Positions 3,325 to 25,475 of a stretch of 64,000 bases of DNA are shown in pieces. Within the stretch, counting starts at the first letter, position 1. Each line of letters starts with the position of its first letter. The notes under the pieces are model-generated. The model was not told the DNA's origin, did no database searches, and worked only from the letters and a program-made list of their open reading frames with translations. Source of the stretch: Gordonia pseudamarae (GTDB lineage Bacteria; Actinomycetota; Actinomycetes; Mycobacteriales; Mycobacteriaceae); the NCBI RefSeq assembly GCF_025273675.1, contig NZ_CP045809.1:2604001-2668000 (forward strand), given 5' to 3'. The translations under genes were made by a program, and so were the position numbers.

Positions 3325-4313
<989 letters not shown>

Positions 4314-4317
<4 letters not shown>

Positions 4318-6193: not shown

Positions 6194-6223
6194 CCGCAGA
6201 GCCCGGGCCACCGCCGTCGGAGA

Positions 6224-6254
6224 ATGGCCGCATCCCCGACGAGGATGCGGCCAT
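6224..6254. terminator. Hairpin between convergent ctaA and hypothetical gene
   Basis: A perfect 12-bp stem (6224-6235 paired with 6243-6254) closes a 7-nt loop. It lies 30 nt after ctaA on the plus strand and 18 nt after the end of the minus-strand gene at 6273, so it can serve both directions. There is no long T-run on either side, so it is a bidirectional stem-type terminator at best. Confidence 0.65.
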
Positions 6255-6272
6255 ATCGCGTTACCGGAGCCG

Positions 6273-6689: not shown

Positions 6690-6737
6690 GCGGGTCAGCA
6701 TACCGGCAGCCATCGGGGGGCCGTGTACAACAGTGGT

Positions 6738-7703: not shown

Positions 7704-7716
7704 TTCGACGTGTGAA

Positions 7717-8703: not shown

Positions 8704-8882
8704 TGGCACTCCTCGTCTGCCTGCGGACACCGATGTCCCGGGGCCGACTGCTCGGCCGACTACTACAGGGAATGGTAGACCGTGCGATCTCGAATCACGG
8801 AATCGCCTGGACCTCGCGATGCCCGACCGGTGCGTTCGGCGTGGTCACCGGGCACCGTGGACTAGAGGAATTGGTCACCTCA

Positions 8883-8915
8883 CCCACGTGCCCCACGTCG
8901 TTAGGTCCACGTGGG
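8883..8915. promoter_or_regulatory. Cluster of CACGT motifs upstream of the tkt promoter
   Basis: CCCACGTG (8883-8890) and CACGTGGG (8908-8915) are inverted copies 17 bp apart, with a third CCCACGT (8892-8898) between them. The cluster ends 24 bp before the tkt -10 box, where an activator or repressor would bind. The protein is unknown. Confidence 0.4.
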
Positions 8916-8939
8916 CGAACCGTCACGCGGCCCGGCGTT

Positions 8940-8945
8940 TAGTCT
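8940..8945 (+). promoter_or_regulatory. -10 element of the tkt operon
   Basis: TAGTCT fits TANNNT. Transcription would begin near 8952, giving a leader of about 67 nt that contains the AGGAG before tkt. A clear -35 is not seen. Confidence 0.45.
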
Positions 8946-9018
8946 GGACTTCAGCAACTGCCCGCAGTTCCTCGTACCAGTGCCGTCGCAGCCCACTCAC
9001 CACAGGAGACACCGCATC

Positions 9019-11142
9019 GTGGCCAGCACCTCAAACAGTCCCGCCGTCATCACCGACGAGATCCGCGCGCTGACCGTCGCCGCTCATCCGGACGACTGGA
9101 CCGACGTCGACACGCGGGCCGTCGACACCGCGCGCCTGCTGGCCGCCGACGCGGTGCAGAAGTGCGGCAGCGGCCACCCCGGCACCGCGATGAGCCTGGC
9201 ACCTCTGGCGTACACGCTGTTCCAGCGCACCCTGAGGCACGATCCCGCCGACCCGGCATGGGTGGGCCGGGATCGTTTCGTCTTGTCCTGCGGACATTCG
9301 AGCCTGACCCTGTACGTCCAGCTGTACCTGGGCGGTTTCGGTCTCGAACTGGGCGACCTGCAAGCGCTGCGCACCTGGGATTCACTGACCCCCGGCCACC
9401 CCGAGTACCGGCACACCAAGGGCGTGGAGATCACCACCGGCCCGCTCGGCCAGGGTCTGGCGTCGGCGGTCGGCATGAGCATGGCCTCGCGGTACGAGCG
9501 CGGCCTCTTCGATCCGCAGGCAGCACCTGGCACCAGCCCGTTCGATCACTTCATCTATGTCATCGCCTCCGACGGCGACATCGAAGAGGGTGTGACCTCC
9601 GAGGCCAGTTCGCTCGCCGGAACCCAGCAACTGGGCAACCTGATCGTCTTCTACGACCAGAACCAGATCTCCATCGAGGACGACACCGATATCGCCCTGT
9701 CGGAGGATGTGGCCAGGCGGTACGAGGCCTACGGCTGGCATGTGCAAACCGTCGAAGGCGGTGAGAACGTCGCCGGTATCGAGGCCGCGATCGAGGCGGC
9801 CAAGGCCGTCACCGACAAGCCCTCGATCATCTGCCTGCGCACGGTCATCGCGTTCCCGGCCCCCACCAAGATGAATACCGGCGCCTCGCACGGTTCGGCA
9901 CTGGGTGCCGACGAGATCGCCGCCACCAAGACCATCCTCGGTTTCGATCCGGAGAAGTCCTTCGAGGTGTCCGACGAGGTCATCGGTCACACCCGCGCGC
10001 TGCTCACCCGCGGCGCCGCCGCCAAGGCGGAGTGGACCACCGGGTTCGATGCGTGGGCCGCGGCCAACCCCGAGGCCAAGTCGCTGTTCGATCGGCTGCA
10101 CGCCGGTGAGCTGCCCGAGGGCTGGACCGACGCGCTGCCCACCTGGACGCCCGGCGACAAGGCGGTGGCGACCCGATCGGCCTCGGGCAAGGTGCTCTCG
10201 GCACTCGGTCCGGTGCTGCCGGAACTGTGGGGTGGTTCGGCCGACCTGGCCGGCTCCAACAACACCACCATCGACGGCGCGAAGTCGTTCGGTCCGGCGT
10301 CGATCTCGACATCCACCTGGACCGCCGACCCGTACGGACGCACCCTGCACTTCGGTATCCGTGAGCATGCGATGGGCTCGATCCTGTCGGGCATCGTCCT
10401 GCACGGGCCGACCCGCGCCTACGGCGGCACCTTCCTGCAGTTCGCCGACTACATGCGTCCGGCCGTCCGGCTCGCGGCGCTGATGGAGATCGCCCCGGTC
10501 TACGTGTGGACGCACGATTCGATCGGCCTCGGTGAGGACGGACCCACCCACCAGCCGATCGAACATCTGGCCGCACTGCGTGCGATTCCGAATCTGGACG
10601 TGGTGCGTCCGGCCGATGCCAACGAGACCGCCTACGCGTGGGCCCACATCCTGACCCGCCACAACAACCCGGCCGGACTGGCCCTGACCCGGCAGAACGT
10701 CGCCGTTCTGGAGGGCACGTCCGCCGAGGGCGTCGCCGCCGGCGGCTATGTGCTCAGCGACGCCGACGGCGAGGCCGCGGTGGTGCTGATCGCGACCGGT
10801 TCAGAGGTGGAGCTGGCGGTGGCAGCCCAGCAGACGCTCAAGGACAAGGGCATCGCCGCCCGCGTCGTGTCGATGCCCAGCATCGAATGGTTCGACGAGC
10901 AGACCCAGGAGTACCGCGATTCGGTGCTCCCCCCGGCCACCCCGCGCGTGGTGGTCGAGGCCGGTATCGCGATGCCGTGGTTCCGGTTCGTACCCTCCGC
11001 CGATCAGATCGTCTCGCTCGAGCACTATGGCGCGTCGGCCGGGTACAAGGTGCTCTACGAGGAGTTCGGTATCACCGCCGGGGCCGTCGTCGCGGCCGCG
11101 GAACGCGCAATAGGCACAGCGGAACGCGCAGCCGCCAAGTAA
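9019..11142 (+). CDS. tkt: Transketolase
   Basis: 707-aa thiamine diphosphate enzyme that moves two-carbon units between sugar phosphates in the non-oxidative pentose phosphate pathway. The N-terminal domain has [18 protein letters not shown] and the cofactor loop [15 protein letters not shown], with NQIS beyond. The middle domain has [15 protein letters not shown] and [15 protein letters not shown]. Length is normal for the family. GTG 9019 is chosen because the protein then starts [15 protein letters not shown] and AGGAG lies 10 nt upstream; the frame is open for a further 36 codons without family similarity. First gene of the operon tkt-tal-zwf-opcA-pgl. Confidence 0.95.
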
Positions 11143-11167
11143 CCACTCGACACCAGGGAGAACCGTC

Positions 11168-12283
11168 GTGACCCAGAACGAGAAGCTCGCAGAACTGTCC
11201 GCCGCAGGGGTATCGGTGTGGCTCGATGACCTGTCCCGGGATCTGATCTCCTCCGGCGACCTGGCCACCCTCGTCGACACCAAGTCGGTGACCGGTGTCA
11301 CCACCAACCCGTCGATCTTCCAGGCGGCGCTGTCGGCCGGCACCAGCTATGATGCCCAGGTGGGCGAGCTGGCCGCGCGCGGAGCCGACGTGGACGCCAC
11401 CATCCGCACCGTCACCACCGACGACGTCCGCAATGCCTGTGACGTGCTCGCCCCGGTGTACGAGGCCACTGACGGGGTCGACGGCCGGGTGTCGATCGAG
11501 GTCGATCCGCGTCTGGCGCACGATACCGACGGCACCATCGCCCAGGCGATCGAACTGTGGAAGATCGTCGACCGGCCCAACCTGCTGATCAAGATCCCCG
11601 CGACCGTCGCCGGTCTGCCCGCGATCAGCAAGGTGATCGCCGAGGGCATCAGCGTCAACGTGACACTGATCTTCTCGGTGGAGCGCTACCTCGGGGTGAT
11701 GAACGCCTACCTCGACGGTCTGGAGGCCGCCGCCACCGCCGGACACGATCTGTCGACGATCCATTCGGTGGCCTCGTTCTTCGTCTCCCGCGTCGACACC
11801 GAGGTGGACAAGCGGCTGGCCGCCATCGGCTCGTCCGAGGCGAAGGAGTTGCAGGGCAAGGCCGCGCTGGCCAATGCCCGCCTGGCCTACGCCGCCTACG
11901 AGGATGTGTTCGGCGGCGACCGCTTCGCCGCGCTGGTGGCCGAGGGCGGACGGTCGCAGCGTCCGCTGTGGGCGTCGACGGGTGTGAAGAACCCCGACTA
12001 CCCCGACACCCTCTACGTCAGCGAGCTGGTCGCGCCCAACACCGTGAACACGATGCCGGGCAAGACGATGGACGCCTTCGCCGACCACGGCTGGGTCAAC
12101 ACCTCCTCGATCATCGGTCTGGGCGACGCCTCGCGGGAGGTTTTCGACAAGATCGCCGCACTCGGAATCGATTTCACCGATGTCTTCGAGGTGCTCGAAA
12201 GCGAAGGAGTGAGTAAGTTCGAAGACGCATGGAACGAACTGCTCATCGCGACCGCGGAGCAGCTGCGCGCAGCGAAAGGCTGA
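11168..12283 (+). CDS. tal: Transaldolase
   Basis: 371 aa, the long actinobacterial/cyanobacterial type of transaldolase. It transfers a dihydroxyacetone unit between sedoheptulose-7-phosphate and glyceraldehyde-3-phosphate. The Schiff-base lysine is in [26 protein letters not shown] sequence near residue 45 and [14 protein letters not shown] are further signatures. GTG start with GGGAG 9 nt upstream, 25 nt after tkt. The downstream zwf starts 6 nt after the stop, so the genes are co-transcribed. Confidence 0.95.
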
Positions 12284-12289
12284 AACCTG

Positions 12290-13843
12290 GTGACATCCCG
12301 GAACGCACAGCACGACGGCACCGACTGGACCAATCCGCTGCGCGATCCCCGGGATAAGAGGTTGGCCCGGATCGCCGGTCCCTGCAGTCTGATCATCTTC
12401 GGGGTCACCGGCGACCTCGCCCGCAAGAAGCTCATGCCCGCCGTGTACGACCTGGCCAACCGGGGTCTGCTACCGCCCTCGTTCGCGCTGGTCGGGTTCG
12501 CCCGGCGCGACTGGGATCACGAGGAGTTCGCCAAGATCGTCCATGACGCGGTCCGCGACCACGCCCGAACCGGTTTCCGGGAAGAGGTGTGGGAGCGGCT
12601 CAGCGAGGGCTTCCGTTTCGTGCGGGGCTCGTTCGACGACGACGCCGCCTTCGACCGGCTCAGGGATACCCTGCTGCGTCTGGATACCGAACGCGGCACC
12701 GACGGCAATCACGCGTTCTACCTGTCGATCCCGCCGAAGGCCTTCCCCACCGTGCTCGAACAGCTGAACCGGGTGGGTCTGGCCTCCGGGGGCGACGAGC
12801 ACTGGCGGCGGGTGGTGATCGAGAAGCCGTTCGGTCACGATCTGCAGTCCGCGAAAGAACTCAACGGCATCGTCAACCGGGTGTTTCCGGAGTCGTCGGT
12901 GTTCCGGATCGATCACTATCTCGGCAAGGAGACGGTCCAGAACATCCTGGCGCTGCGGTTTGCCAACCAGTTGTTCGATCCGCTGTGGAGTTCGCACTAC
13001 ATCGACCATGTGCAGATCACGATGGCCGAGGACATCGGCCTCGGTGGCCGGGCCGGCTATTACGACGGGATCGGTGCGGCCCGCGACGTCATCCAGAATC
13101 ATCTGCTGCAGCTGATGGCGCTGGTGGCGATGGAGGAGCCGATCTCGTTCGAGCCCAAGCAGTTGCAGGCCGAGAAGATCAAGGTCCTGGCCGCCACCCG
13201 CAATATCGAACCGCTCGCGCAGAACTCGGCGCGCGGACAGTATGGTCCGGGCTGGCAGGGCAGCGAGAAAGTGCCGGGCCTGATCGACGAGGACGGTTTT
13301 GCCGCCGATTCGATCACCGAGACGTACGCGGCGATCGCGCTCGAGGTCGATTCACGGCGCTGGGCCGGTGTGCCGTTCTATCTGCGCACCGGAAAGCGCC
13401 TGGGCCGCAGGGTCACCGAGATCGCTTTGGTGTTCAAACGGGCGCCGCATCTGCCGTTCGACAAGACCATGACCGAGGAACTGAGCCAGAACGCGCTGGT
13501 CATCCGGGTGCAGCCGGATGAGGGCATCACGTTGCGGTTCGGCTCCAAGGTGCCCGCATCGAGCATGGAGGTGCGCGATGTGAATATGGACTTCAGCTAC
13601 GGCACCGCCTTCACCGAGGCGTCCCCGGAGGCCTACGAGCGGCTGATCCTGGACGTGCTGCTCGGTGAGCCGTCGCTCTTCCCGGTCAACGAGGAAGTCG
13701 AATTGTCGTGGCAGATCCTCGATCCGGTCCTGGCCCAGTGGGCCTCGGACGGCAAGCCGGATACCTACGAGTCGGGCACCTGGGGCCCGGCCTCGGCCGA
13801 AGAGATGATGAACCGCACCGGCCGTAGCTGGCGCCGACCGTGA
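12290..13843 (+). CDS. zwf: Glucose-6-phosphate 1-dehydrogenase
   Basis: 517-aa NADP-dependent enzyme, first step of the oxidative pentose phosphate pathway. The dinucleotide-binding motif is FGVTGDLARKKLMPAVYDL near residue 40. The active-site signature RIDHYLGKE with the catalytic His is near residue 207. EKPFGHDL supplies another conserved lysine. GTG start 6 nt after tal. In actinobacteria Zwf needs OpcA, encoded next, for full activity. Confidence 0.95.
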   Translation: MTSRNAQHDGTDWTNPLRDPRDKRLARIAGPCSLIIFGVTGDLARKKLMPAVYDLANRGLLPPSFALVGFARRDWDHEEFAKIVHDAVRDHARTGFREEVWERLSEGFRFVRGSFDDDAAFDRLRDTLLRLDTERGTDGNHAFYLSIPPKAFPTVLEQLNRVGLASGGDEHWRRVVIEKPFGHDLQSAKELNGIVNRVFPESSVFRIDHYLGKETVQNILALRFANQLFDPLWSSHYIDHVQITMAEDIGLGGRAGYYDGIGAARDVIQNHLLQLMALVAMEEPISFEPKQLQAEKIKVLAATRNIEPLAQNSARGQYGPGWQGSEKVPGLIDEDGFAADSITETYAAIALEVDSRRWAGVPFYLRTGKRLGRRVTEIALVFKRAPHLPFDKTMTEELSQNALVIRVQPDEGITLRFGSKVPASSMEVRDVNMDFSYGTAFTEASPEAYERLILDVLLGEPSLFPVNEEVELSWQILDPVLAQWASDGKPDTYESGTWGPASAEEMMNRTGRSWRRP

Positions 13844-14774: not shown

Positions 14775-15553
14775 TCGCAGCAGACAATCCGCATGTGGAG
14801 CCGGTGACCGAGACACTGGTCTTCGACGACAAAACCGAGCTCGTTTCCACTGCCGCGCAACGCTTTGTGGATGTGGTGACCGCGGCGCAGCGCGAACGCG
14901 GGGTGGCGCACGTCGTGCTCACCGGCGGCAGCAACGGTATCGCGATCCTGGCGGCGCTTGCCACCGGGGCGGGCGTTACGGCCGACGGACTCGACTGGAC
15001 GAATATCGAAATCTATTGGGGCGATGACCGTTTCGTTCCCGACGGCGATCCCGATCGCAATGCGGGGCAGGCCCGGGATGCGTTGCTCGCCCATGTCCCT
15101 GTCGATCCGGCCAAGGTGCACCCGATGGCCCCGTCGGACGGCCCGTTCGGTGACGACATCGCCGCCGCCGCCGCCGACTATGCCCGCCTGCTGGCGTCGT
15201 TGTCCGCCGACGGGGTGGCTCCCGAGTTCGATCTGCATCTGCTCGGCATGGGCGGTGAAGGGCACATCAACTCCCTGTTCCCCCACGCCGAGGCCACTGC
15301 CGAGACATCGAAAACCGTCGTTGCCGTCACAGACTCCCCCAAGCCTCCGTCACGCCGTATCACCCTGACGCTGCCGGTGGTCAACCGCAGCCGCGCCGTG
15401 TGGTTCCTGGTCGCCGGCGCCGACAAGGCGGAGGCCGTGGCGGCGGCCCGCGATGGTGCCGATGCCGCCGACTGGCCGTGCGCCGGTGCCCACGGCACCG
15501 CCGAAACGGTCTGGTTCCTCGACACCGCGGCGGCCTCCCACCTCACCGCCTAG
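14771..15553 (+). CDS. pgl: 6-phosphogluconolactonase
   Basis: 260-aa enzyme that hydrolyses 6-phosphogluconolactone, the product of Zwf. NagB-like fold with HVVLTGGSNGIAIL near residue 50, WGDDRFVPDGDPDRN near residue 90 and GMGGEGHINSLFP near residue 160. GTG start overlapping opcA by 4 nt. Last gene of the pentose phosphate operon. Confidence 0.93.
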   Translation: MIAADNPHVEPVTETLVFDDKTELVSTAAQRFVDVVTAAQRERGVAHVVLTGGSNGIAILAALATGAGVTADGLDWTNIEIYWGDDRFVPDGDPDRNAGQARDALLAHVPVDPAKVHPMAPSDGPFGDDIAAAAADYARLLASLSADGVAPEFDLHLLGMGGEGHINSLFPHAEATAETSKTVVAVTDSPKPPSRRITLTLPVVNRSRAVWFLVAGADKAEAVAAARDGADAADWPCAGAHGTAETVWFLDTAAASHLTA

Positions 15554-15619
15554 CAACCTCACCGCTTAGCCACCCCGCCATTTCCCATCAATTCGCGCAC
15601 CCGCCATCCCCTGGCTTGC

Positions 15620-15625
15620 TAGCGT
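15620..15625 (+). promoter_or_regulatory. -10 element of the lipase gene, leaderless geometry
   Basis: TAGCGT fits TANNNT and ends 6 nt before the ATG at 15632, with no Shine-Dalgarno between. A leaderless transcript is therefore likely. Confidence 0.5.
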
Positions 15626-15631
15626 CCGACC

Positions 15632-16543
15632 ATGATTCGATCCGCTGTCCGCCCGGTGATCGCAACGGTCACCGCGGTGGCCGCTGTGCTGCTGACTGTT
15701 GTCGCCCCGGCTTCGGCCGCTCCGAAACCGTATCCGGTGAGCTACGACGCCCTCGGATCGTTCATCGCCGGTTCCCTCGTGGCCGATGTCCCGCCGCCCG
15801 GGGCGAATATCCGAACGTGCCACAGCGCGACGCACCCGACGCCGGTAATTCTGGTGCACGGTTTTTCAGCGAACCAGAACGGTAGCTGGCGGGCGATCGC
15901 GCCGATCCTCGCCAATGACGGGTACTGCGTGTTCACGCTCAATATGGGGCAGACCTCGTTAAGTCGGCCGCTCGGCATAGGGCATATCGAGAGCCTGTCG
16001 ACGTCGGCGACACAGTTGTCGACGTTCGCCGACCAGGTCCGAGTATGGACGGGCGCACAGAAGGTCGATCTGATCACCCATTCCGCGGGCGGTGCGGTCG
16101 CCAACATTCTGCTGCACGATCTGAACGGTGCGACAAAGGTGCGACACGTGATCAATGTCGGCGGGGTGCTGTCCGGGTTCCCGGAGGTCCACGGCATGGC
16201 GATGATCGATATTCCCGCGCTCAAGGCACCGCTGTTGGAAATCTGTCCCGGCTGTGGCGATCTCGACGACCGCGACCGGTACCAGTCGCTGAAAGCGCCG
16301 ATACCACATGTTCGGTACACCAATATCGCCACGATGAACGATGAGTTGGTGACTCCGTACCGCAACGCCCATCTGCCTGCTGCGCCGAACGTCGCCAACA
16401 TCACGGTGCAGAAGGTGTGCCCGGGCTCGATCGTCGGACATATCGGTCTGCTGTATGACCGTGGTGTCATCACGATGATCCGCAACAGCCTCGATCCCGA
16501 CCGCAGACGCCCGGTCAGGTGCGAGCCGGGTTTCCCGCTGTAG
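15632..16543 (+). CDS. Secreted alpha/beta-hydrolase, lipase class 2 / EstA-like
   Basis: 303 aa with a Sec signal peptide: basic start MIRSAVRP, hydrophobic core to about residue 25 and an Ala-X-Ala cleavage site near residue 29-30. The oxyanion motif is PVILVHGFSANQNGSW (residues 71-86). The nucleophile is Ser151 in ITHSAGGAVAN, where Thr replaces the first Gly of GxSxG. A late GHIGLLYD supplies the likely catalytic His, and Asp is probably in the DLDDRD region or nearby. Several cysteines (C63, C99, CPGCGD) suggest disulfides. Substrate probably esters or lipids outside the cell. It is not part of the pentose phosphate operon by promoter evidence. Confidence 0.82.
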   Translation: MIRSAVRPVIATVTAVAAVLLTVVAPASAAPKPYPVSYDALGSFIAGSLVADVPPPGANIRTCHSATHPTPVILVHGFSANQNGSWRAIAPILANDGYCVFTLNMGQTSLSRPLGIGHIESLSTSATQLSTFADQVRVWTGAQKVDLITHSAGGAVANILLHDLNGATKVRHVINVGGVLSGFPEVHGMAMIDIPALKAPLLEICPGCGDLDDRDRYQSLKAPIPHVRYTNIATMNDELVTPYRNAHLPAAPNVANITVQKVCPGSIVGHIGLLYDRGVITMIRNSLDPDRRRPVRCEPGFPL

Positions 16544-16691
16544 ATCCGTTGGCGAGCCGGTCTGGGACGCCGCCTACGCCGAATCACATCTCATCGCCGC
16601 CGCACCGAGACCCCGCGCTCACCGAGGAGTCCCGCGGCCCGATATCGCTGTGCGGCATCGGGAACATCGGCGACGCCGATGCGAGCAGACG

Positions 16692-16988
16692 TCAGGCGAC
16701 ACCTTTGAACGGATCATGCTCTGCGATCAGCTTTTCCACACGTGCCTCGTCCAGGCGTGAACGGATCGACGTCTGTTCCTGCCGGTCGCGCACCACCTTC
16801 GCGAGGGTGAACGTGCTCGACACCAGGAACAGCAGGGTGACGCCGAAGTAGCCACGCTGCCAGGAGTCGAGTGGGAGGTTCCACACACCGATCACCGATG
16901 CGCTCAGGCTGACCGCGAATGCGATGATCGCCTGAATCTGAAACGCCGACGTGGTCGCGGACTGCGGGATGTCTTTACTCTGTGCCAT
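16692..16988 (-). CDS. YiaA/YiaB-type two-helix inner membrane protein
   Basis: 98 aa with two hydrophobic segments, IIAFAVSLSASVIGVWNL and GYFGVTLLFLVSSTFTL. These are followed by KVVRDRQEQ, the pattern of the yiaAB two-helix domain. The C-terminal 30 residues are charged and helical. Function of the family is unknown. It faces the lipase gene across 148 bp in which I see no strong terminator. Confidence 0.75.
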   Translation of the reverse strand: MAQSKDIPQSATTSAFQIQAIIAFAVSLSASVIGVWNLPLDSWQRGYFGVTLLFLVSSTFTLAKVVRDRQEQTSIRSRLDEARVEKLIAEHDPFKGVA

Positions 16989-17136
16989 GCCTCGACGCTA
17001 GATCGTCCCGGATGAGCGAACATGCGTAGCGCTACTCACATCTCCACACATATCGGAATAAAATAATGTCTTGGCATTGCACCGGACGTACCCTATTCTC
17101 ATATCTCACCGACACCGCGACCGAAGGGAGACGACC

Positions 17137-17208
17137 ATGCGCGGCAGCATCTGTGACGCTGTGTGCGACGGCTTCTCGTATCCCGGTTCGCCCATGACAA
17201 GCGCCTGA
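17137..17208 (+). CDS. Possible 23-aa peptide or leader frame
   Basis: ATG with AGGGAG 7 nt upstream opens a 23-codon frame (starting MRGSICDAVCDGFSYPG). It ends 68 nt before the tRNA-like gene. The peptide resembles nothing I recognise and contains two cysteines. It could be a leader peptide, the truncated head of a lost gene, or chance. Confidence 0.25.
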   Translation: MRGSICDAVCDGFSYPGSPMTSA

Positions 17209-17276
17209 GGACTCTGCCGGCTCCTTGCCCGTGGACAGGTGTCGCCACGGCCGATCAGCATCGTGCCGATATACCT

Positions 17277-17358
17277 GTGCCGGTCGGATCGCGGCTATTC
17301 CAGCGGACTGTAAATTCGTGGCTTTCGAGCATCGCAGGTTCGAGTCCTGCCCGGCACA
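17277..17358 (+). tRNA. Divergent tRNA-Tyr(GTA)-like gene, long variable arm, no encoded CCA
   Basis: 82 nt fold as a type II tRNA. The acceptor stem is a perfect 7 bp (GTGCCGG with CCGGCAC). The D stem has 3 bp with GG in the loop. The anticodon arm is GCGGA-CTGTAAA-TTCGT with anticodon GTA at 17310-17312 and two G-T pairs. The variable arm is 14 nt, as expected for bacterial tRNA-Tyr. The T arm GCAGG-TTCGAGT-CCTGC is perfect. Odd points: conserved A14 is missing, the D loop is short, CCA is not encoded and the gene sits alone 97 bp before an RNA-repair nucleotidyltransferase. It may be a tRNA-like RNA acted on by that system rather than the housekeeping tRNA-Tyr. Confidence 0.75.
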
Positions 17359-17455
17359 CTCTCCGTCACGTCATTTCAACCCAGCAGGCAACCCGGCCGG
17401 CCTGTCATCGCACCCCGCATACGGCCACCTGATCATTTCCGGAAGGACAATTCCG

Positions 17456-17845
17456 ATGGATGCCTCACCCCAACGTCCCAATGTCGAATACGGCGATCCC
17501 GCGGTCGCCCTGCCGAACGAGATCCTGCGTTCGGTGGTGGGCAGCGGCGTGCACGGTATCGCGATCCCCGGTACCGACGACCACGACGAGATGGGTGTCT
17601 ACGTCGAACCGCCCGAGTACATCCTCGGCATCATCGAGCATCGTCAGGACTACATCTGGCGGACGCAACCAGAGGGCGTACGCAGCGGCCACGGCGACAC
17701 CGACCTGGTGCTGTATTCGCTGCGGAAGTACCTGCGGCTGGCCACCAAGGGCAATCCGACAGCGTTGCTGCCGTTGTTCGCACCGGAGAGGTCTCTGGTC
17801 GTGCGCACGCCACTGGGTGACGAACTGCGTGCACTGCGGACGGCG
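17456..17845 (+). pseudogene. RlaP-type RNA-repair nucleotidyltransferase, 5' part (split by IS)
   Basis: First 130 codons of a polymerase-beta-superfamily nucleotidyltransferase of the RlaP (YcgL/COG3541) type. The catalytic motif is GSGVHGIAIPGTDDHDEMGV near residue 34, giving the GS and D-x-D signature. The third acidic region DTDLVLYSLRKYLRLA and the family motif KGNPTALLPLFAPE follow. The start is ATG 17456 with GGAAGG 10 nt upstream. The frame is interrupted after ...LRALRTA by an IS256-family element. Joining to 19287 through one copy of the 9-bp duplication gives an intact protein of 266 aa, so inactivation looks recent. RlaP proteins are known from predicted RNA repair operons. Confidence 0.85.
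17837..17845 (+). repeat. Left copy of 9-bp target-site duplication
   Basis: CGGACGGCG, repeated exactly at 19278-19286. It flanks the IS and codes for part of LRTA in the nucleotidyltransferase. Confidence 0.85.
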
Positions 17846-19277
17846 AGTAGTGCCCCATAGAGTGGTGTAACTCGGTGACCAGGACCGTGGCCGGCAGCGT
17901 GTGGCTGTCGGGCAGGGAAGCGGTCACCGTGTGATCCTTCGAGTCAACCTCTCACAGAATCCTCGAATGGAGTCATCACGATGACCGCACCCCACATTGT
18001 CGACCCGGCCGGCCTGTTGAGCCAAGCTCTGACCGACGCGTCACCGGATCTGATGCGCGAGCTGCTGCAGACAGTGATTAACGCCCTGCTGTCTGCGGAT
18101 GCCGACGCCGTGTGCGGCGCCGAATGGGGCCGCCGGTCCGAAGAGCGCACCAACTACCGCAACGGCTACCGCCACCGACCCTCGATACCCGCGTAGGCAC
18201 CATCGACGTCGCCGTGCCCAAGCTCCGGTCGGGCACCTACTTCCCGAGTGGTTGCTCGAACGCCGCAAACGCGCCGAGTCCGCGCTGATCACCGTGGTCG
18301 CTGACTGCTATCTCGCCGGGGTCTCGACCCGCCGGATGGACAAGCTGGTCAAGACCCTGGGCATCGATTCGTTGTCGAAGTCGCAGGTCTCCCGCATGGC
18401 CGAAGACCTCGACGAACAGGTTGCCGCGTTTCGTCACCGCCGACTGGACGAGGCCGGCCCGTTCACGTTCGTCACCGCGGATGCGTTGACGATCAAGGTC
18501 CGGGAGAACAAGCAGGTCGTCAAAGCCGTCGTGCTGCTGGCTACCGGAGTCAACGGTGACGGTCATCGTGAGGTGCTCGGCATGCAGGTCGCCACCAGTG
18601 AGACCACAGCCTCGTGGAACACCTTCTTCGCCGACCTCGTGGCCCGCGGCCTGGGCGGAGTTCGCCTGGTGACTTCCGATGCCCATGCCGGGCTCATCGA
18701 GGCGATCGCAGCGAACCTACCGGGAGCGGCCTGGCAACGCTGCCGCACCCATTACGCGGCGAATCTGATGGCGGTGTGTCCGAAGTCGATGTGGCCAGCA
18801 GTCAAGGCCATGCTGCACAGCGTCTATGACCAACCCACTGCTGGTGCGGTCAATGCCCAGTTCGACCGACTCATCGAATACACCGAAGACCGCCTACCCG
18901 ACGTCGCCGAACACCTCGGCGACGCCCGTGAAGACCTGCTGGCATTCGCCGCGTTTCCTGATGACGTGTGGCGCCAGATCTGGTCCAACAACCCCACAGA
19001 ACGACTCAACCGCGAGATCCGGCGCCGCACCGACGTCGTAGGCATCTTCCCGAACCGCGATGCCATCGTCCGGCTCATCGGAGCAGTGCTCGCCGAGCAG
19101 ACCGACGAATGGGCCGAAGGCCGCCGCTACCTCGGCCTCGAAGTGCTCAGCCGCTGCCGGCTGACCGTCACCGACACCGACCACACACCGGAGGTGAACA
19201 CCGACCCACTGATCCAACTACCCGCCTGACCACCTACGAAGGACCACAACCAGTTACACCACTACGCGGGACTTGAC
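17846..19277 (+). mobile_element. IS256-family insertion sequence, 1432 bp
   Basis: Bounded by the 9-bp duplications at 17837-17845 and 19278-19286. Near the ends are inverted copies of AGTGGTGTAACT (17861-17872, and complementary at 19252-19263), about 15 bp inside each edge. The outermost 15 bp match only in part (common CCC and GT positions). Length and an 8-9 bp duplication fit IS256. It carries one transposase gene, disabled by frameshifts. Confidence 0.85.
17981..19229 (+). pseudogene. IS256-family transposase with two frameshifts
   Basis: The protein would be about 415 aa. It reads in one frame from ATG 17981 to about 18182 (RTNYRNGYRHRP), in a second from 18184 to about 18242 (DTRVGTIDVAVPKLRSGTYF) and in a third from there to the stop at 19229 (PEWLLERRKRAE onward). 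Each switch equals loss of one base. The DDE motifs are intact in the last part: VTADALTIKV, VTSDAHAGL and NNPTERLNREIRRRT. The two lesions within 65 bp stop production of full-length transposase. They may be real or a local sequencing error. Confidence 0.85.
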
Positions 19278-19286
19278 CGGACGGCG
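19278..19286 (+). repeat. Right copy of 9-bp target-site duplication
   Basis: CGGACGGCG, identical to 17837-17845. Confidence 0.85.
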
Positions 19287-19697
19287 TTCCTGTCACGGGT
19301 CGCCGTCGAACGGTTCCTCGGCTACATGCACTCGCAGCACGAACGGATGCTCGGCCAGGCCGGACGCAAGGTGCCGAACCGGCCCGAACTGATCGAACGG
19401 TTCGGCTGGGACGTCAAGTACGGCTCGCACGCGCTGCGGCTGGCGTACCAGGGTCACGAACTGGCGAGCACGGGCCACCTCACGTTGCCGATGCCCGCCG
19501 ACCAACGTGAACGGGTGCTCTCGGTCAAGCGTGGCGAGGTGCCGCGAGCTGAGGTGTCGGCCCAGATCACCGACCTGGAGTCGCGGGTGCGGGCGCTGCT
19601 CGATGAGGATCGCTCACCACTTCCCGGGCACGCCGACGCCGACCGCATCAGTACGTGGGCCGTCGACGCCCAGCGCAGGCACTGGGGCTGGGCATAG
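19278..19697 (+). pseudogene. RlaP-type nucleotidyltransferase, 3' part (after the IS)
   Basis: From the second copy of the duplication the frame continues RTAFLSRVAVERFLGYMHSQ. It goes on through VPNRPELIERFGWDVKYGSH, which is typical of the helical C-terminal half of RlaP proteins, and AYQGHELASTGHLTLPMP to the stop at 19697. It has no start of its own near the junction. A strong hairpin follows 7 nt after the stop. Confidence 0.85.
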
Positions 19698-19703
19698 GTT
19701 TGT

Positions 19704-19734
19704 GGTTGTGGCGGGATCATCCCCCGCCACAACC
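19704..19734 (+). terminator. Hairpin terminator after the RlaP gene
   Basis: Perfect 12-bp stem (19704-19715 with 19723-19734) and a 7-nt loop. It begins 7 nt after the nucleotidyltransferase stop. No T-run follows on the plus strand, so termination would rely on the stem alone. Confidence 0.6.
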
Positions 19735-19788
19735 ATGATCGGCCACCGGTCACCGCGTGGGTACGGCGAGAATCAGCGGCACGGGAAG

Positions 19789-20106
19789 CTATCCGCTCGC
19801 CCTGGAATCCCACGCACGCCAGAGTTCGGCGTACCGCCCTTGTACCGCGACAAGTTCTGTGCGCGTTCCGGACTCGACGACCACTCCGTGATCGAGTACG
19901 ACGATCCGGTCGCCGCCAGCGGCCTGGGTGAGTCGATGCGCGACGACCAGGGCAGTGTTGACGCCGGACGCAACCAGCCGGTCAGGGCTGAGACTCCCAC
20001 CCCGCGGCGGGCTGCCCACTGACGGGCGCAACTGATACGCCAACTCCTCCCACGCTCTGGCTTGGCTTCCCTCGTGAGACCGGATCTCACTCAAACGAAT
20101 CGACAT
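19789..20106 (-). pseudogene. Remnant joining two gene fragments: P-loop NTPase start and ABC transporter end
   Basis: A 105-codon frame with two unrelated ends. Residues 1-28 (MSIRLSEIRSHEGSQARAW and on) resemble the conserved start of large defence-associated NTPases, where a GSQ-x-FEEL-like motif is common. Residues from about 49 (NTALVVAHRLTQAAGGDRIV and on, to YAELWRAW) are the H-loop and C-terminus of an ABC exporter ATPase of the CydC/MsbA type. The piece between is low-complexity. The simplest reading is a deletion that fused the head of one gene to the tail of another. It should not be active. Confidence 0.6.
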
Positions 20107-20155
20107 ACGCTGAGAGCTCTCAATCTGTGCATGGTGGGCGCCGCCGCATGGCTGC

Positions 20156-20830
20156 TCATGGCTTGGATGTCAGGGCTGAGGGGATGGCCGACTTCTCGGC
20201 GATCCAAGATCCGGCTTCTGGATGAACCCAGCGCGCGAGCTCGACTGCGATGCCGAGGTCGCGGGCAAGGTTTCGACGATGGATCGGCTCATGATGAGCA
20301 GCTCTGTTGCGCACAAGCATGAGATCGGCCATGTGACGTTCGACTTTGCGGCGCCGGTCACGTAGATCGACGTCGCCTCCAGGGAACGCGTTGTGCAGCG
20401 CCGGGACCCAGAGGCTTGCGTGGTAACGCTGGGCGGTGAGGTATCGCCAGAAGCCGAAGCTGAGCTCGGCGACCACCTTGCCATGTGCGAGCGCTGCCCG
20501 TCCGTAACTCGTGGCGCGGTTGCGGGCCTTGTCGATGTCAGCTCGCCCGCGCGAGTCGAGTGGGCAGACATCCAGCCACGACCGCATGCCACGGCCGCTC
20601 GCCCAAGCGACGAGTTGGGCGTCGAGAGCGTTGCAGATGACTACCTCAACCATGGCAGTGGTCTGCATGATGGCGGCGGACGCTGTCAGGTTCCATTCGT
20701 AGAGACCGAGCGCGCAACCGAGATCCTGATCGCAACTGGCGAGATAGGAGCGCAGGCGGTCGGCCGTCAGGAGATCACGGATGGTCTCGGGTCGCCATGC
20801 CCGGCCACTGTCCGCCGCGATGTTTGACAT
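20156..20830 (-). CDS. Abi-like protein (Abi_2 / AbiD-AbiF family, HEPN)
   Basis: 224 aa. ADRLRSYLASCDQDLGCALG, the helical middle, FWRYLTAQRYHASLWVPAL and LMLVRNRAAHHEPIH follow the order of the Abi_2 family (AbiD, AbiF), known for phage abortive infection. R174-x4-H179 in RNRAAH is the HEPN ribonuclease motif, so RNA cleavage is the likely activity. AGGGAG stands 9 nt before the ATG at 20830. It is a single gene without a visible antitoxin, next to remnants and upstream of tRNA-fMet, in a region with RNA repair genes. Whether it is active in defence is inference. Confidence 0.78.
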   Translation of the reverse strand: MSNIAADSGRAWRPETIRDLLTADRLRSYLASCDQDLGCALGLYEWNLTASAAIMQTTAMVEVVICNALDAQLVAWASGRGMRSWLDVCPLDSRGRADIDKARNRATSYGRAALAHGKVVAELSFGFWRYLTAQRYHASLWVPALHNAFPGGDVDLRDRRRKVERHMADLMLVRNRAAHHEPIHRRNLARDLGIAVELARWVHPEAGSWIAEKSAIPSALTSKP

Positions 20831-21235
20831 TCCCTAGATTCTCCCTAAAGTTGTCAACGAAGACCCCGGAACGATCCCTGGCCTTGGCCACATCGCCGGG
20901 GTTACGCCTTTCCCGGCCCCGCGAAACCCGGCGCTTAGGCTCAACAGGCCTTCGGGGGTAAGTGCTGGCGCGCACCCGCTGAGCCTAACCACCGGGTCCG
21001 ACAAGAGCGCAGCACCACTCCGTATCACAAGTACCTGAGTTACATGCCAAGGGTCGCGACTGGTCGTGATCATCATGGCCTCGGCCGGTCGGACGTAGTG
21101 GTTGAGCAACGTGTCACGACCCCGGGGTCGTGTTTGCGCGGCGATCCTGTCGATCGGTGCCCCGTTGACGGCGACGGTGGCGGCATGTCCGTCAACAACG
21201 TCCTGACCCGCAACAGCTAACCCACCTACCGTGGG
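20831..21235. other. Gene-poor stretch between the Abi gene and tRNA-fMet
   Basis: No convincing gene. A plus-strand frame ends at 21220 (about 60 codons, ending NNVLTRNS). It has no recognisable similarity and no clear start, and could be the tail of a lost gene. Palindromic GC-rich pieces are present (20908-20990 area), but no repeat of the tRNA 3' end is seen. Confidence 0.5.
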
Positions 21236-21272
21236 AAAAAGAAAGAACCACGGCCCCTGAGGACCGTGGTTC
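21236..21272 (-). terminator. Rho-independent terminator of tRNA-fMet
   Basis: On the minus strand a 9-bp stem (21272-21264 with 21253-21245) and 10-nt loop are followed directly by TTTCTTTTT. It lies 14 nt after the tRNA. This is the clearest intrinsic terminator in the window. Confidence 0.85.
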
Positions 21273-21286
21273 CAACAATCTAACTT

Positions 21287-21363
21287 TGGTAGCGGGGACA
21301 GGATTTGAACCTGCGACCTCTGGGTTATGAGCCCAGCGAGCTACCGAGCTGCTCCACCCCGCG
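21287..21363 (-). tRNA. Initiator tRNA-fMet (CAT)
   Basis: 77 nt including encoded CCA. Initiator features are all present: unpaired 1-72 (C against T), A11-T24 in the D stem and three G-C pairs at the base of the anticodon loop (CTGGG-CTCATAA-CCCAG). The T arm is GCAGG-TTCAAAT-CCTGT. It lies 50 bp after the Pnkp stop on the same strand. Its 3' end points toward the region of remnants, as is usual for tRNA genes used as integration sites. Confidence 0.95.
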
Positions 21364-21413
21364 TTGACGTGAAGAACCTTACGGGGGTGGGGTGGCAAAA
21401 CACAAATCGGCTG

Positions 21414-23978
21414 CTAGAGGCGTGAATCCACCGGCTCGGACTCGAGGGCGAGGACCGCGAAGACGCACTCGTGGACCTGCCAGAGCGGGGCGCCGTCGAC
21501 GTGCCGGGACAGCGCTTCGCGGCCGAGCTGGTATTCACGCATCGCCATCGACCGTTTGTGTTTGAGTTCCCGCTTGCGCAGGCGGCCGAGGTCATCGAGA
21601 TAGGACTGGCCGTAGATGATCCGCAGGTACTCGCGGCCGCGCACCTTGACGCCAGGTGGAACGAGGTGGTTCTTGTCGTCACGGGTCAGGTTGGCGGACG
21701 GCTTGACCACCATGCCTTCCCCTCCCGCCGCGGTGAGGTCCGCCCACCAGCGGGCACCCGCGGCGCACGAGGACGCATCGCCGGTCGACACCGGCAGCCA
21801 CTGCGTTGGCGTGAAGACGTCCGGTCCGGCGGCGGCGAGGGCTTCGGCGATGTCGAGGTGCCAGGTGTGCGGACGGTCTGCGAATGTCTGCGCGCCGTCG
21901 GCGTTTCCGGCGGCCAGAACCTCGAACGGTGCGATCCGCACATCGTCGATACTCGCACCGGCATCGACGTATTGCGCGTATGCGGCGGTGAACGCGGCCC
22001 GGTCCCGACGGTCGCGTTCACACCGGTCCGAGAGCGCACCGACGTCCAGGCCGCGGGCGGTGGCCCGGGCCAGCTCCGCCGCCAGCACATCGGCCTGCGA
22101 CTGTCCCGCCGCCGCGACCTCGGCGAACTGTTCGCGGATCAGCTGCTCGCCCTTGATGTTCCACGGCAACAGCTCGGCGTCCAGGATCAGCCAGTCCGAT
22201 CCCAACAGGTCCAGAACACCGTGCGCCGCGTCGAGTGCCCGGGAAATGATTCCCGCGGTGGTGGCGGCATCGAAGAACGGGCGGCCGGTGCGTGTGTACA
22301 GGGCGCCGCACGTGCCGTCGGTCACCCCGAACACCCGCCGGGCCGCATCGCCCCGGGTGAGGACCAGCACCGCCCGCGAACCCATGTGCTTGCGTTCGCA
22401 GATCACCTCGGCCACACCGAGATCGGCGTAGTACCTGAACGCGCCCGCCGGGTCCTCCAGCAGATTCTCGTCCAGCGCACCGACCGGGCTCATCGTCGGC
22501 GGCAGATAGCGCACCCAGCGCGGGTCGATCGCGAAGCGTGACACAATCTCCAGCGCCGACGCCGAGACCTCCTCCCGCACAGTCAGTGCCGGTCCGAACC
22601 TGGTGTGTACGATCCGCTTGCCGGCCACATCGTCAAGATGCAGTTCGGCACGCATCAGCAGGTCGATGTCGGTCTCTCCGTAGCCCATCGGCCGCCCGCC
22701 CGGCCAGTGCACCGCGGTGGCCGGCACGTCGACGACCGCCAGCTCCGGATACCGCAACGCCGTCAACCGTCCGCCGAACACACACCCGGTGTCGATGCAC
22801 AGGGTGTTGTTGACCCACCCGACATCGGTGACCGGGGTGTGGCCGTACACCACGCGCGCCGGGCCGCGATAGTCACGGGCCCAGTTGCCGCGCACCGGGT
22901 AACCCCAGCGGTCCTTCTCCCCCGTCGTCTCCCCGTACATGGCGAGGCTGCGCACCCGCCCGGACGACCGATTGTGGTAGCGCTGCGCCAAACCGGCGTG
23001 CGCCACGACGAGTTTCCCGTCATCGAAGACATAGTGGGAGACCAGCGAATCGAGGAAGGCGATCACCTCGTCGACGAACTCCGGTGACTGCGCCCGCAAC
23101 TGGGCGACGGACTCGGCAAGCCCGTGCGTCAGCGCGGGTGAGTCGGGCGAGACGGAATCGGTACCGCGCGCGCGGCCGGGTCTTCGCGCACCACCGCTCC
23201 GCTGCAGCACCTTGATCAGCTTCTCCTCGTGGTTGCCACGCACACACCACGCATTGCCCGCCGCAACCAGATCCATCACCCGCCGCAACACTCCCGGCGT
23301 ATCCGGGCCGCGGTCGACGAGGTCGCCGACGAAGATCAGCTTCCTTCCGTCCGGGTGGGCGTTGCCGACCCAGCCGAGCCGGTCGAGCAGGGTGTCGAGT
23401 TCGGCACGACAGCCGTGGATGTCGCCGATCAGATCGAACGGGCCACGCACATCGCCTACGTCACTGAACAGCGCGGTGCGGGTGATCCGGGTGGCGTCGA
23501 TCGTCTCGACACCATCGAGTACGTGTACGAACCGAAACCCTTCCTTGCGCAGGTTCCGTGCGTGCTGTTTGAGCAGTTTGTGCTGCCGCACAACAACACC
23601 GGCATCGATACCGGCACGATCCTGCGAGCGATGCCTCAGCTCCGCGAGCGGCACGTCGAGCACGACGGCCACGGCGAACACATCGTGTTCCTTCGCCAGA
23701 TCCAGCAGGCCGCGCCGGTCCTCGGGACGCAGCGAAGTGGCGTCGACCACCGTCAGCAGCCCACGGCGAAGGCGCCGCCCGGCGACGTCGTAGAGGGCGT
23801 CGAACGCATCGACGGTCGCCGCCTGGTCGGTCGGGTCGTCGGACACCATCGCCCGGAAGGTATCGGACGAGAGCACCTCGGTGCCCCGGAAATGTGCACG
23901 GGCGAAGGTCGATTTGCCCGACCCGGTCACGCCGACCAACACCACCAGGCACAGTTGCGGCATCTCGATGGTCGTCAT
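21414..23978 (-). CDS. pnkp: Pnkp, polynucleotide kinase-phosphatase-ligase of bacterial RNA repair
   Basis: 854-aa three-domain enzyme. Kinase domain: P-loop GVTGSGKST at residues 16-24 and LSSDTFRAMVSD. Phosphatase domain (binuclear metallophosphoesterase): GDIHGC near residue 188, GDLVDRGPDTPG, RGNHEEKL, and later VYGHTPV and DTGCVFGG. Ligase domain (nucleotidyltransferase): ERKHMGSRAVLVL with the adenylated Lys, and GEGMVVKP with the metal/adenylate Lys. This matches Clostridium thermocellum Pnkp in order and length. The enzyme heals and seals RNA cut by ribotoxins. The ATG overlaps the hen1 stop by 4 nt, so it is the second gene of the operon. Confidence 0.95.
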   Translation of the reverse strand: MTTIEMPQLCLVVLVGVTGSGKSTFARAHFRGTEVLSSDTFRAMVSDDPTDQAATVDAFDALYDVAGRRLRRGLLTVVDATSLRPEDRRGLLDLAKEHDVFAVAVVLDVPLAELRHRSQDRAGIDAGVVVRQHKLLKQHARNLRKEGFRFVHVLDGVETIDATRITRTALFSDVGDVRGPFDLIGDIHGCRAELDTLLDRLGWVGNAHPDGRKLIFVGDLVDRGPDTPGVLRRVMDLVAAGNAWCVRGNHEEKLIKVLQRSGGARRPGRARGTDSVSPDSPALTHGLAESVAQLRAQSPEFVDEVIAFLDSLVSHYVFDDGKLVVAHAGLAQRYHNRSSGRVRSLAMYGETTGEKDRWGYPVRGNWARDYRGPARVVYGHTPVTDVGWVNNTLCIDTGCVFGGRLTALRYPELAVVDVPATAVHWPGGRPMGYGETDIDLLMRAELHLDDVAGKRIVHTRFGPALTVREEVSASALEIVSRFAIDPRWVRYLPPTMSPVGALDENLLEDPAGAFRYYADLGVAEVICERKHMGSRAVLVLTRGDAARRVFGVTDGTCGALYTRTGRPFFDAATTAGIISRALDAAHGVLDLLGSDWLILDAELLPWNIKGEQLIREQFAEVAAAGQSQADVLAAELARATARGLDVGALSDRCERDRRDRAAFTAAYAQYVDAGASIDDVRIAPFEVLAAGNADGAQTFADRPHTWHLDIAEALAAAGPDVFTPTQWLPVSTGDASSCAAGARWWADLTAAGGEGMVVKPSANLTRDDKNHLVPPGVKVRGREYLRIIYGQSYLDDLGRLRKRELKHKRSMAMREYQLGREALSRHVDGAPLWQVHECVFAVLALESEPVDSRL

Positions 23979-25333
23979 GGCTTGTCTTCCTTGTCGATTC
24001 GGGTGAACACGGCGGTCTGTGTCGGCGGCCCCACCTTTGGGTCGTCGTCGCCGACACCCCCTAACTCCACCGCGTATCGGTACCGTTCGGCGACACCGGC
24101 GGCCCAGCCGGCGAACTCGTCACGGGTGAACTCGAAACGGTGGTCGCGATGGCGCAATTCGCCGTCGGCGAGCCCGAACACGATGTTGTGTTCGCGGTTC
24201 GGAGTGGTGACGACGACGGTGCGCGGCGCCATCGCGTCGAACACCGAATACTCGGCCACCGCCAGACGGTCGGTGTCGATGTGCTCGATCACCTCCATCA
24301 ACACGACAGCGTCGAAACCGCGACAGCGTGGATCGGTATACATCAATGACGATTGCCACACGGCCACCTCACGCAGACGGGCCAGCCGCGCCGATGCTCT
24401 GTTCAGCTCCGTCACCGACACATCGACACCGGCGAGACGGCCGGCAAAACCGTCGGACACCAAACCCGCCAACAGCTTTCCCTCACCACAACCGACGTCG
24501 AGAACCGAGCGCGCACCCGACCGGAGAACCAGCTCCGTGACCGCGTTCCGGCGTTGCCGGGCCAGTGGCTCACGGTAGGGCCGCGACCGGTCGTCGTCGG
24601 CTGCCGCCGCACCGGGATCCGCGGCGTCGCCGAAACGCAACGCGGCCCGCTCGGTCAGCGGACGGATTCGTTTGAGGTATCCGCGGACGATCTCACCACG
24701 GCGGGGATGATCACCGAGCCAGCCGTCGCCGAGCCGGTCGAGCTTGTCCACCTCGTCGTCGTCGACGAAATAGTGTTTGTCGTCGGCCAGTACCGGCAGC
24801 AGCACCGCCAGCTGCCGCAACGCATCACGCAGCGTCGACCGCCCGCGCAAGGTGATGGTGCCGTGCGCCGAATCACCCCATGGCACCGGACTCAGCGGCT
24901 GCCGCGCGACACCGACATCCCAGCCGATCGGGCCGAACAGATCCGCGGGCGAGGACGCACTGCGCAACGGCACCGCCGCGATAGTGATCGTCACCTCCCA
25001 CACATGGCTCACCAGATCGGGCCTGGTGACGGCCCGCCCGGCGATCGTGTCGCCGAACACCTTCCCCAATGCCACCACGAACCGCGACGACGCCTCGTCG
25101 GCGAGCGCGTTCACATACGGGCTGACGCCGCTCGACTTGTCCGGCCGCACACCGGCACCGTCGACATGCAGCACCACCCGGCACCGCTGCGCCGTCGCCT
25201 CCGAATAGAACACGGTCGCCGTACCCTGCGTTGTCGCAAACGTCTGCACCCGGTCCGGATGCTTGTGCAGCAGGAATCCCAGATCGGTGGCGGGCCGTGC
25301 ATCGTCTCCGGTGACTTCGATAGTGGCAATCAC
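23975..25333 (-). CDS. hen1: Hen1, RNA 3'-terminal 2'-O-methyltransferase
   Basis: 452 aa. The N-terminal half (residues 1-230) is the bacterial Hen1-specific domain that also activates the Pnkp ligase in characterised systems. The C-terminal half is the methyltransferase. SAM binding is at SVLDVGCGEGKLLAGL near residue 285. The metal site is EVIEH with the later HRDHRFEFTRDEF, giving the family's Glu/His ligands, and TTPNREHN lies between. It marks the 3' end at a break with a 2'-O-methyl group before sealing, so repaired RNA resists a second cut. GTG start. Operon hen1-pnkp. Confidence 0.95.
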   Translation of the reverse strand: MIATIEVTGDDARPATDLGFLLHKHPDRVQTFATTQGTATVFYSEATAQRCRVVLHVDGAGVRPDKSSGVSPYVNALADEASSRFVVALGKVFGDTIAGRAVTRPDLVSHVWEVTITIAAVPLRSASSPADLFGPIGWDVGVARQPLSPVPWGDSAHGTITLRGRSTLRDALRQLAVLLPVLADDKHYFVDDDEVDKLDRLGDGWLGDHPRRGEIVRGYLKRIRPLTERAALRFGDAADPGAAAADDDRSRPYREPLARQRRNAVTELVLRSGARSVLDVGCGEGKLLAGLVSDGFAGRLAGVDVSVTELNRASARLARLREVAVWQSSLMYTDPRCRGFDAVVLMEVIEHIDTDRLAVAEYSVFDAMAPRTVVVTTPNREHNIVFGLADGELRHRDHRFEFTRDEFAGWAAGVAERYRYAVELGGVGDDDPKVGPPTQTAVFTRIDKEDKP

Positions 25334-25475
25334 TTCGCAACTGTACGACGCTGTGCAACTGATTTGCCTGCGACTACAGCGCAGCTGTCAGCCGACCGCG
25401 GCATCGGTGTGCGAGCCACGTCGTCGTTGACCGGACCGACGATCGTGGGGTCGGCCCGGCCTCCGGGAGCGGCCG

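Follow-up and report, generated by a model that had tools for sequence, protein, structure and literature searches.

Bacterial RNA repair has been described for the Pnkp-Hen1 system (PMC4411300), and RlaP, when found alongside RNA ligases, is predicted to put back, ahead of ligation, the nucleotides that cleaved RNA ends have lost (PMC7824862). T5-like phages are rescued from the tRNA-Tyr-depleting retron-Eco7 by an abundant tRNA-Tyr of their own; changing the anticodon abolished the rescue, and the host's own tRNA-Tyr expressed from a strong phage promoter also rescued (PMC11555353). A change in the anticodon loop has been proposed as a route to resistance for phage tRNAs (PMC10264068). The Y RNA YrlA, which mimics a tRNA and is found with Ro60 beside the rtcBA repair genes, has a tRNA-like domain suggested to inhibit a nuclease by competition (PMC7790460), and the MenT nucleotidyltransferase toxins extend the acceptor ends of tRNAs (PMC10435456, PMC11541572). 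A tRNA gene paired with RlaP was not described among the literature matches listed, Burroughs and Aravind 2016 being outside the search.

The 64,000-nt stretch of Gordonia DNA analysed here (the window) carries such a pair, a tRNA-Tyr gene directly before rlaP, and the Pnkp and Hen1 genes lie close by (Table 1). This repair-locus setting was absent from the initial annotation, which proposed from the pair itself a specialised tRNA-like RNA dedicated to RlaP.

Table 1. Features of the tRNA-Tyr-RlaP and Pnkp-Hen1 region, in window coordinates.
Feature	Position	Strand	Basis
Promoter-like site TTGGCA-17-TATTCT, candidate promoter of the tRNA-RlaP unit	17071..17099	+	Consensus scan
23-codon reading frame with ribosome-binding-like site	17137..17208	+	Read from sequence
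Accessory tRNA-Tyr(GUA), type II	17277..17359	+	ARAGORN; Rfam RF00005; conserved in G. amarae
RlaP (PF10127), N-terminal part of the gene broken by the IS element	17456..17860	+	Pfam
IS256-family element inside rlaP; transposase 18099-19229	17861..19263	+	Inverted repeats; PF00872; NF033543
RlaP C-terminal part, after the IS element	19269..19697	+	PF10127; tblastn relatives
Initiator tRNA-Met (fMet), neighbour	21287..21363	-	ARAGORN; same site in G314
Pnkp, RNA end-healing and ligation enzyme	21414..23978	-	PF16542; TIGR04075
Hen1, 3' terminal RNA 2'-O-methyltransferase	23975..25333	-	PF12623; TIGR04074

The gene was called as tRNA-Tyr(GTA) by ARAGORN and matched the Rfam tRNA model with 44.2 bits (gathering score 29), and it ends 96 nt before the RlaP start codon (17456) on the same strand, bearing out the type II tRNA-Tyr first read there. 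The sole other tRNA found in the window was the initiator tRNA. Bacterial tRNA-Tyr is marked by a GUA anticodon, the discriminator base A73, a G1-C72 pair and a long variable arm, and all of these are present. The canonical tRNA-Tyr of the genome lies elsewhere, at C1:4225755-4225836, adjoining tRNA-Thr, and is 100% identical over 82 nt in the window genome, Gordonia amarae and a further Gordonia genome, G314; the comparison suggested by the initial annotation thus showed that the window copy is not the only tRNA-Tyr. The Rfam model gave 55 tRNA matches in the 5.15 Mb genome, and anticodons were read in 19 fetched stretches (21 tRNAs; one stretch held none) that included all eight other matches of at least 81 bases. 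A further tRNA-Tyr among the shorter, unread matches is unlikely. The window gene is a genuine extra, second tRNA-Tyr(GUA) of the genome.

Several peculiarities had been attributed to this tRNA. The loss of A14 was confirmed, with C14 in its place and the U8-A14 tertiary pair consequently missing; the G. amarae copy has A14. The wobble pairs of the anticodon stem proved unusual in part, as G30-U40 is confined to the window copy (position 40 is C in G. amarae) but G27-U43 also occurs in the canonical gene. The CCA end is indeed missing, but from the canonical gene as well, and since the canonical tRNA-Tyr has both, the lack of CCA and G27-U43 are ordinary features. The D loop is hardly short, because the alignments give it 10 nt compared with 11 in the canonical tRNA-Tyr. 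In the Rfam alignment the window tRNA has a single non-standard pair, in the D stem. The YrlA covariance model found no match in window positions 15500-25500 at E values up to 1; the RNA is a complete tRNA, and its identification as a Y RNA was rejected.

The consensus scan found two promoter-like sites upstream of the tRNA, where 0.1 were expected; both are candidates, and the second, at 17035-17064, looks weaker than the one in Table 1. In G. amarae a single promoter-like site was found, differently placed, immediately before the tRNA. No terminator-like site was found between the tRNA and RlaP in the window or in G. amarae. The 23-codon frame and its ribosome-binding-like site also occur at the same place upstream of the G. 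amarae tRNA-Tyr, and an F-x-YPGS stretch is common to both, with about 43% of nucleotides differing in this region (31/72, counted at an offset of one base). A reading frame running through the tRNA-Tyr stays open into RlaP in both species.

Conservation was examined by comparison with G. amarae (locus L068, RlaP 87% identical), which likewise has a tRNA-Tyr immediately upstream of RlaP, together with the same fMet tRNA, Pnkp and Hen1. Across 79 nt the tRNAs at this place share 96% identity. Over all 83 positions the two accessory tRNAs show five differences (78/83 match), two of which make up a compensatory change in the acceptor stem, at pair 2-71 (T-A to C-G), while another swaps C-G for U-G. 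In the aligned flanks 105 of 235 positions differ (tRNA versus flanks, Fisher p 9e-12); at four-fold sites the differences amount to 18/56 in the N-terminal part of RlaP and 175/456 in Pnkp. The disparity between 5/83 and 105/235 indicates that selection has maintained the accessory tRNA, for at least a large part of the period since the two species diverged. The Rfam scores are 44.2 bits for the window copy, 52.5 for the G. amarae copy and 56.3 for the canonical tRNA-Tyr. By these scores the copy next to the interrupted RlaP is the most worn, and it appears to be drifting. The anticodon arm of the G. amarae accessory tRNA is identical to that of the canonical tRNA-Tyr.

Near-full-length DNA relatives of the tRNA were found only in the window genome and G. 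amarae among 301 family genomes and, among the matches listed from a search of 396 phylum genomes, only in the window genome; both searches scored two to three candidates per genome, and lower-ranked copies could be missed. A phage or plasmid source was rejected, as the viral contigs held no exact match to the tRNA core, the plasmids held no match to the window tRNA-Tyr, and the phage matches were only partial (84-89%, in 9 records).

The polymerase-beta-type RlaP gene named in the initial annotation is genuine, its N-terminal part matching PF10127 with 67.9 bits (cutoff 23), but it is broken by an IS256-family element bounded by inverted repeats of 17 nt (88% complementary; 17861-17877 and 19247-19263). 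The coding sequence resumes at about 19269, where the C-terminal part scores 23.6 bits against the cutoff of 23. The G. amarae homologue is uninterrupted (265 aa, 103.5 bits). No credible relative of solved structure was found for RlaP by sequence, the best E value being 0.29. In the RlaP tree the window groups with G. amarae (98/91); Gordonia spumicola RlaP does not group with them, and its placement is unsettled. Compared with two Nocardioides loci (L069 and L070), the window RlaP is 85-86% identical in its N-terminal and 75% in its C-terminal part, whereas Pnkp is 51-52% and Hen1 44-45% identical. As RlaP is far closer to Nocardioides than Pnkp and Hen1 are, we infer that it moved separately from them.

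RlaP has a patchy distribution. It is present in 17 of 151 family genomes (one of them that of the window), in none of the nine other genus members of that draw, and in 25 of 396 phylum genomes. Relatives occur in 399 of 50,697 phage records, mostly of mycobacteriophages, and in 15 plasmid records; none was found with the RlaP query in the viral_contigs collection. In Microbacterium phage A3Wally an RNA ligase adjoins RlaP, and in two Nevillevirus records a Ro-like protein is encoded near it.

On the other side of the initiator tRNA, Pnkp (TIGR04075, 1162.9 bits, cutoff 750) and Hen1 (TIGR04074, 498.2 bits, cutoff 340) are adjacent and both above the curated cut-offs for the Pnkp-Hen1 RNA repair system. 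Between RlaP and the tRNA-fMet, a protein encoded at 20156-20830 (minus strand) matches the defence family PD-T4-5 in PADLOC (E 3.8e-10) and, weakly, HEPN_Swt1 (E 0.07), and could be a nuclease; the G. amarae stretch gave no match to it. Among the subset of window frames scanned, neither a tRNA-cleaving toxin directed at tRNA-Tyr nor an integrase gene was found. TROVE has its sole match in the genome outside the window, at C1:4156941, and none at the locus. That TROVE/Ro60 protein (in locus L249, C1:4155441-4158665) is 51% identical to the one in L070, and a sub-threshold YrlA match lies 3' of it, at 2771-2837 of the locus. Elsewhere in the window an FMN riboswitch is present (40118-40283, minus strand; RF00050, 92.6 bits).

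The cassette is situated between pgl and ppc, which were found in 40 and 41, respectively, of the 41 genus genomes drawn. Eighteen pgl-ppc intervals of varied size were fetched, and the cassette was present in one, that of G. amarae; the 17 others, G314 included, are empty sites, as expected for an inserted island. These 17 intervals also lack a tRNA-Tyr, so the site is not a native tRNA-Tyr locus. By ppc identity to the window, G. amarae (94%) is followed by G314 (91%), whose site holds YiaAB and the fMet tRNA, 5' flank included, followed by ppc, with no tRNA-Tyr, RlaP, Pnkp or Hen1. The initiator tRNA was therefore rejected as a part of the cassette. It appears to predate the cassette at this site, Pnkp-Hen1 having been added on one side of it and tRNA-Tyr-RlaP on the other; loss of the cassette in G314 is a less simple alternative. 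The genome has two identical initiator tRNA genes, that of the window and one at C1:3675982, and the alignment shows a terminator-like hairpin after the window gene.

To see how general the pairing is, the N-terminal part of RlaP was used as a query on named genomes, and the best 80 of 113 relatives were taken as loci. All 28 close loci (L068-L095, 58-87% identity) were scanned for tRNAs, with inspection of the 260 nt before each match, and a tRNA lies directly upstream in one of them, that of G. amarae; Pnkp and Hen1 were found at 8 of the 28, within the stretches fetched. A same-strand tRNA no more than about 300 nt upstream was found at two of the best 80 loci, L068 and L131, the latter from Streptomyces actuosus with a tRNA-Leu(GAG) 273 nt before the nearest RlaP start. 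Sixteen RlaP loci of the family, three of which coincide with loci of the 80, have no same-strand tRNA within that distance. Three of 27 phylum loci have one directly upstream, all from the genus g145 and all a tRNA-Leu(UAA). Among the 12 phage and plasmid loci opened (10 and 2, from 399 and 15 matching records), none has a tRNA within 1 kb. RlaP homologues without the tRNA, which the initial annotation held would count against its proposal, are thus largely the rule.

The chance of a same-strand tRNA ending at most 300 nt upstream of a random gene is about 0.16% (55 tRNAs, 5.15 Mb), which gives about 0.2 expected pairs in roughly 120 loci; pairs were seen in three lineages, a number that falls to two without Gordonia, the case that had prompted the search. 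A tRNA upstream of RlaP is more frequent than chance, although the figure is rough because the loci are related and the genomes differ. The pair is a lineage-specific accessory tRNA in an RNA-repair island and not a general tRNA-RlaP system. The idea that the pairing is meaningful holds insofar as the pair is conserved in two Gordonia species, its tRNA is under selection and it belongs to a locus with Pnkp and Hen1, but does not extend to RlaP at large.

Our preferred reading, which we judge to have an even chance of being right, is that this is a functional accessory tRNA-Tyr that arrived with RlaP in the pgl-ppc hot spot and adds to the supply of tRNA-Tyr beside tRNA-repair enzymes. A spare tRNA in an RNA-repair island is more likely than a new kind of RNA partner. 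The tRNA-Tyr next to RlaP would have entered the ancestor of the window strain and G. amarae at this hot spot, where Pnkp and Hen1 are located as well. It would be co-transcribed with RlaP, as no terminator was found between them, excised by the normal tRNA-processing enzymes, provided with CCA and charged with tyrosine, and would then read UAU and UAC codons. Pnkp would heal and ligate cleaved tRNAs and Hen1 would methylate the mend, with RlaP predicted to restore lost nucleotides, while the accessory tRNA would furnish extra tRNA-Tyr, by analogy with phage-carried tRNAs that replace cleaved host tRNAs. Given that the anticodon arm in G. amarae is the same as that of the host's canonical tRNA, the accessory tRNA would not be immune to a nuclease reading only that arm; resistance by a changed anticodon loop is not the route here, and a reserve would have to act by quantity. 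In the window strain RlaP has been lost to the IS element and the decay of the tRNA would have begun, and the window copy, with A14 lost, G30-U40 and 44.2 bits, may work poorly here. Against a reserve stands the fact that only two species, and one descent event, carry the pair.

A possible, though less probable, explanation is that the mobile islands which carry RlaP insert at tRNA genes and that the tRNA-Tyr is a piece of a former insertion site that came along with them, so that the adjacency is functionless and the tRNA has been kept only because it is usable. Other islands point in this direction. In a Nocardioides MAG (L070), 35-nt direct repeats of the 3' end of tRNA-fMet, neither copy being a whole tRNA, flank a segment with Pnkp, Hen1, TROVE/Ro60, RlaP and a tyrosine recombinase. 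The integrative element spans 3425-13133 and also carries a PDC-S54 candidate defence protein. In genus g145 (9 genomes), the tRNA-Leu(UAA) is directly before RlaP in all three RlaP-bearing genomes and is followed by an RlaP-like remnant in a fourth (G594); a tRNA-Leu with similar upstream sequence lies beside an integrase gene (PF00589) in G522 and is found with no RlaP in G543. This tRNA-Leu looks native and like an integration site. The tRNA-Leu(GAG) before RlaP in S. actuosus also speaks for this explanation. On the other hand, the 17 other pgl-ppc intervals show that the tRNA-Tyr is not native to the site in Gordonia, and a search for further exact 15-mers of the tRNA-Tyr or tRNA-fMet found none in the rest of the 64 kb window, where a copy of the tRNA end would be expected at the other island border, or in 20 kb of G. 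amarae sequence. The stretches examined around the tRNA-Leu genes likewise held no exact repeats.

Further arrangements of tRNA genes were observed. In G563, L240, L243 and L244, a tRNA-Leu(UAA) cut off after 31 nt is followed by an HNH-like frame (weak Pfam match) and a complete type II tRNA-Leu(UAA), and the same tRNA-Leu(UAA) occurs on another contig end, followed by RlaP. The g145 tRNA-Leu genes with similar upstream sequence have variable arms that are short or long. In L087 (11056-13136), a 3' piece of tRNA-Arg is repeated about 2 kb from the whole tRNA-Arg and bounds two frames near RlaP.

It is improbable that the tRNA-Tyr serves RlaP, or a linked nuclease, as its specific substrate, decoy or target, the proposal with which this locus was first annotated. 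The unit is conserved in two species, the tRNA strongly so; the PD-T4-5-like protein could be the nuclease, and the tRNA-mimicking Y RNA with Ro60 beside rtcBA offers a precedent (PMC7790460). In L070, moreover, a sub-threshold YrlA match (39.1 bits, gathering 69) lies between TROVE and RlaP, and tRNA mimics may accompany some such repair islands, the window island not among them. However, 27 of the 28 close RlaP loci have no tRNA directly upstream, and RlaP therefore does not need one. The accessory tRNA also has the ordinary features of a tRNA-Tyr, with a score in G. amarae close to the canonical one (52.5 against 56.3 bits), and YrlA was unmatched; the PD-T4-5-like protein was unmatched in the G. 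amarae stretch, and the window RlaP is broken.

Very unlikely, in our view, is a role as a 5' element in which tRNA-processing cuts release the rlaP mRNA and set its stability. The tRNA precedes the RlaP start codon on the same strand, by 96 nt in the window and about 39 nt in G. amarae, with no terminator-like site between, and the short frame precedes the tRNA in both species, but the promoter-like sites are differently placed in the two, and the Tyr-type features that have been kept are unneeded for a mere processing signal. The least likely reading is that the tRNA of the window strain is a pseudo-tRNA in decay, with no function at present: the window copy has the lowest of the three scores, has lost A14, carries G30-U40 and stands beside a broken RlaP, but it matches G. 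amarae at 78 of 83 bases, far above the flanks, which places any decay early, it has one non-standard pair in the Rfam alignment, and the reading concerns the window copy and not the origin of the pair.

The accessory-supply reading can be taken further to a speculative suggestion, which we regard as rather doubtful, that some chromosomal repair islands include a tRNA gene of their own to serve as reserve or bait. tRNA-Tyr would be hit by a nuclease, Pnkp, Hen1 and RlaP would repair as much as possible, and the island tRNA-Tyr, made on the same transcript as RlaP, would sustain translation or occupy the nuclease; the tRNA-Leu-RlaP pairs of g145 would then be further cases with other tRNAs. If the tRNA is a reserve, bacteria would be combining the repair of tRNAs with their replacement from a gene in their own chromosome, a trick described from phages. 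tRNA-Tyr would then be indicated as a damaged RNA in these cells, and the accessory tRNA would provide a natural substrate for testing RlaP, whose nucleotide-adding repair role is a prediction in the source cited (PMC7824862). Should the tRNA be no more than a hitchhiker, the locus is still a further indication that repair islands with RlaP spread by way of sites linked to tRNA genes.

Set beside the described systems, the locus shares with MenT toxins a nucleotidyltransferase acting, in the case of RlaP by prediction, on tRNA, but the window protein matches PF10127, the RlaP family. With Ro60 and YrlA it shares a tRNA-related RNA encoded beside RNA-repair genes, although the window RNA is a complete tRNA and not a Y RNA, and the locus is without TROVE. 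Its Pnkp and Hen1, adjacent and above the curated cut-offs, resemble the Pnkp-Hen1 RNA repair system of PMC4411300, a description that never uses the word RlaP and that, in the passages considered, mentions no accessory tRNA gene; in the window, a tRNA-fMet separates RlaP and the tRNA from Pnkp and Hen1. Compared with the reserve tRNA-Tyr of T5-like phages (PMC11555353), the window tRNA is chromosomal, single and beside RNA-repair genes, and its promoter is a candidate only. Like that phage tRNA, it is an extra tRNA-Tyr(GUA) with an intact anticodon in a mobile or defence-related region, an additional isoacceptor beside the host's own canonical tRNA-Tyr.
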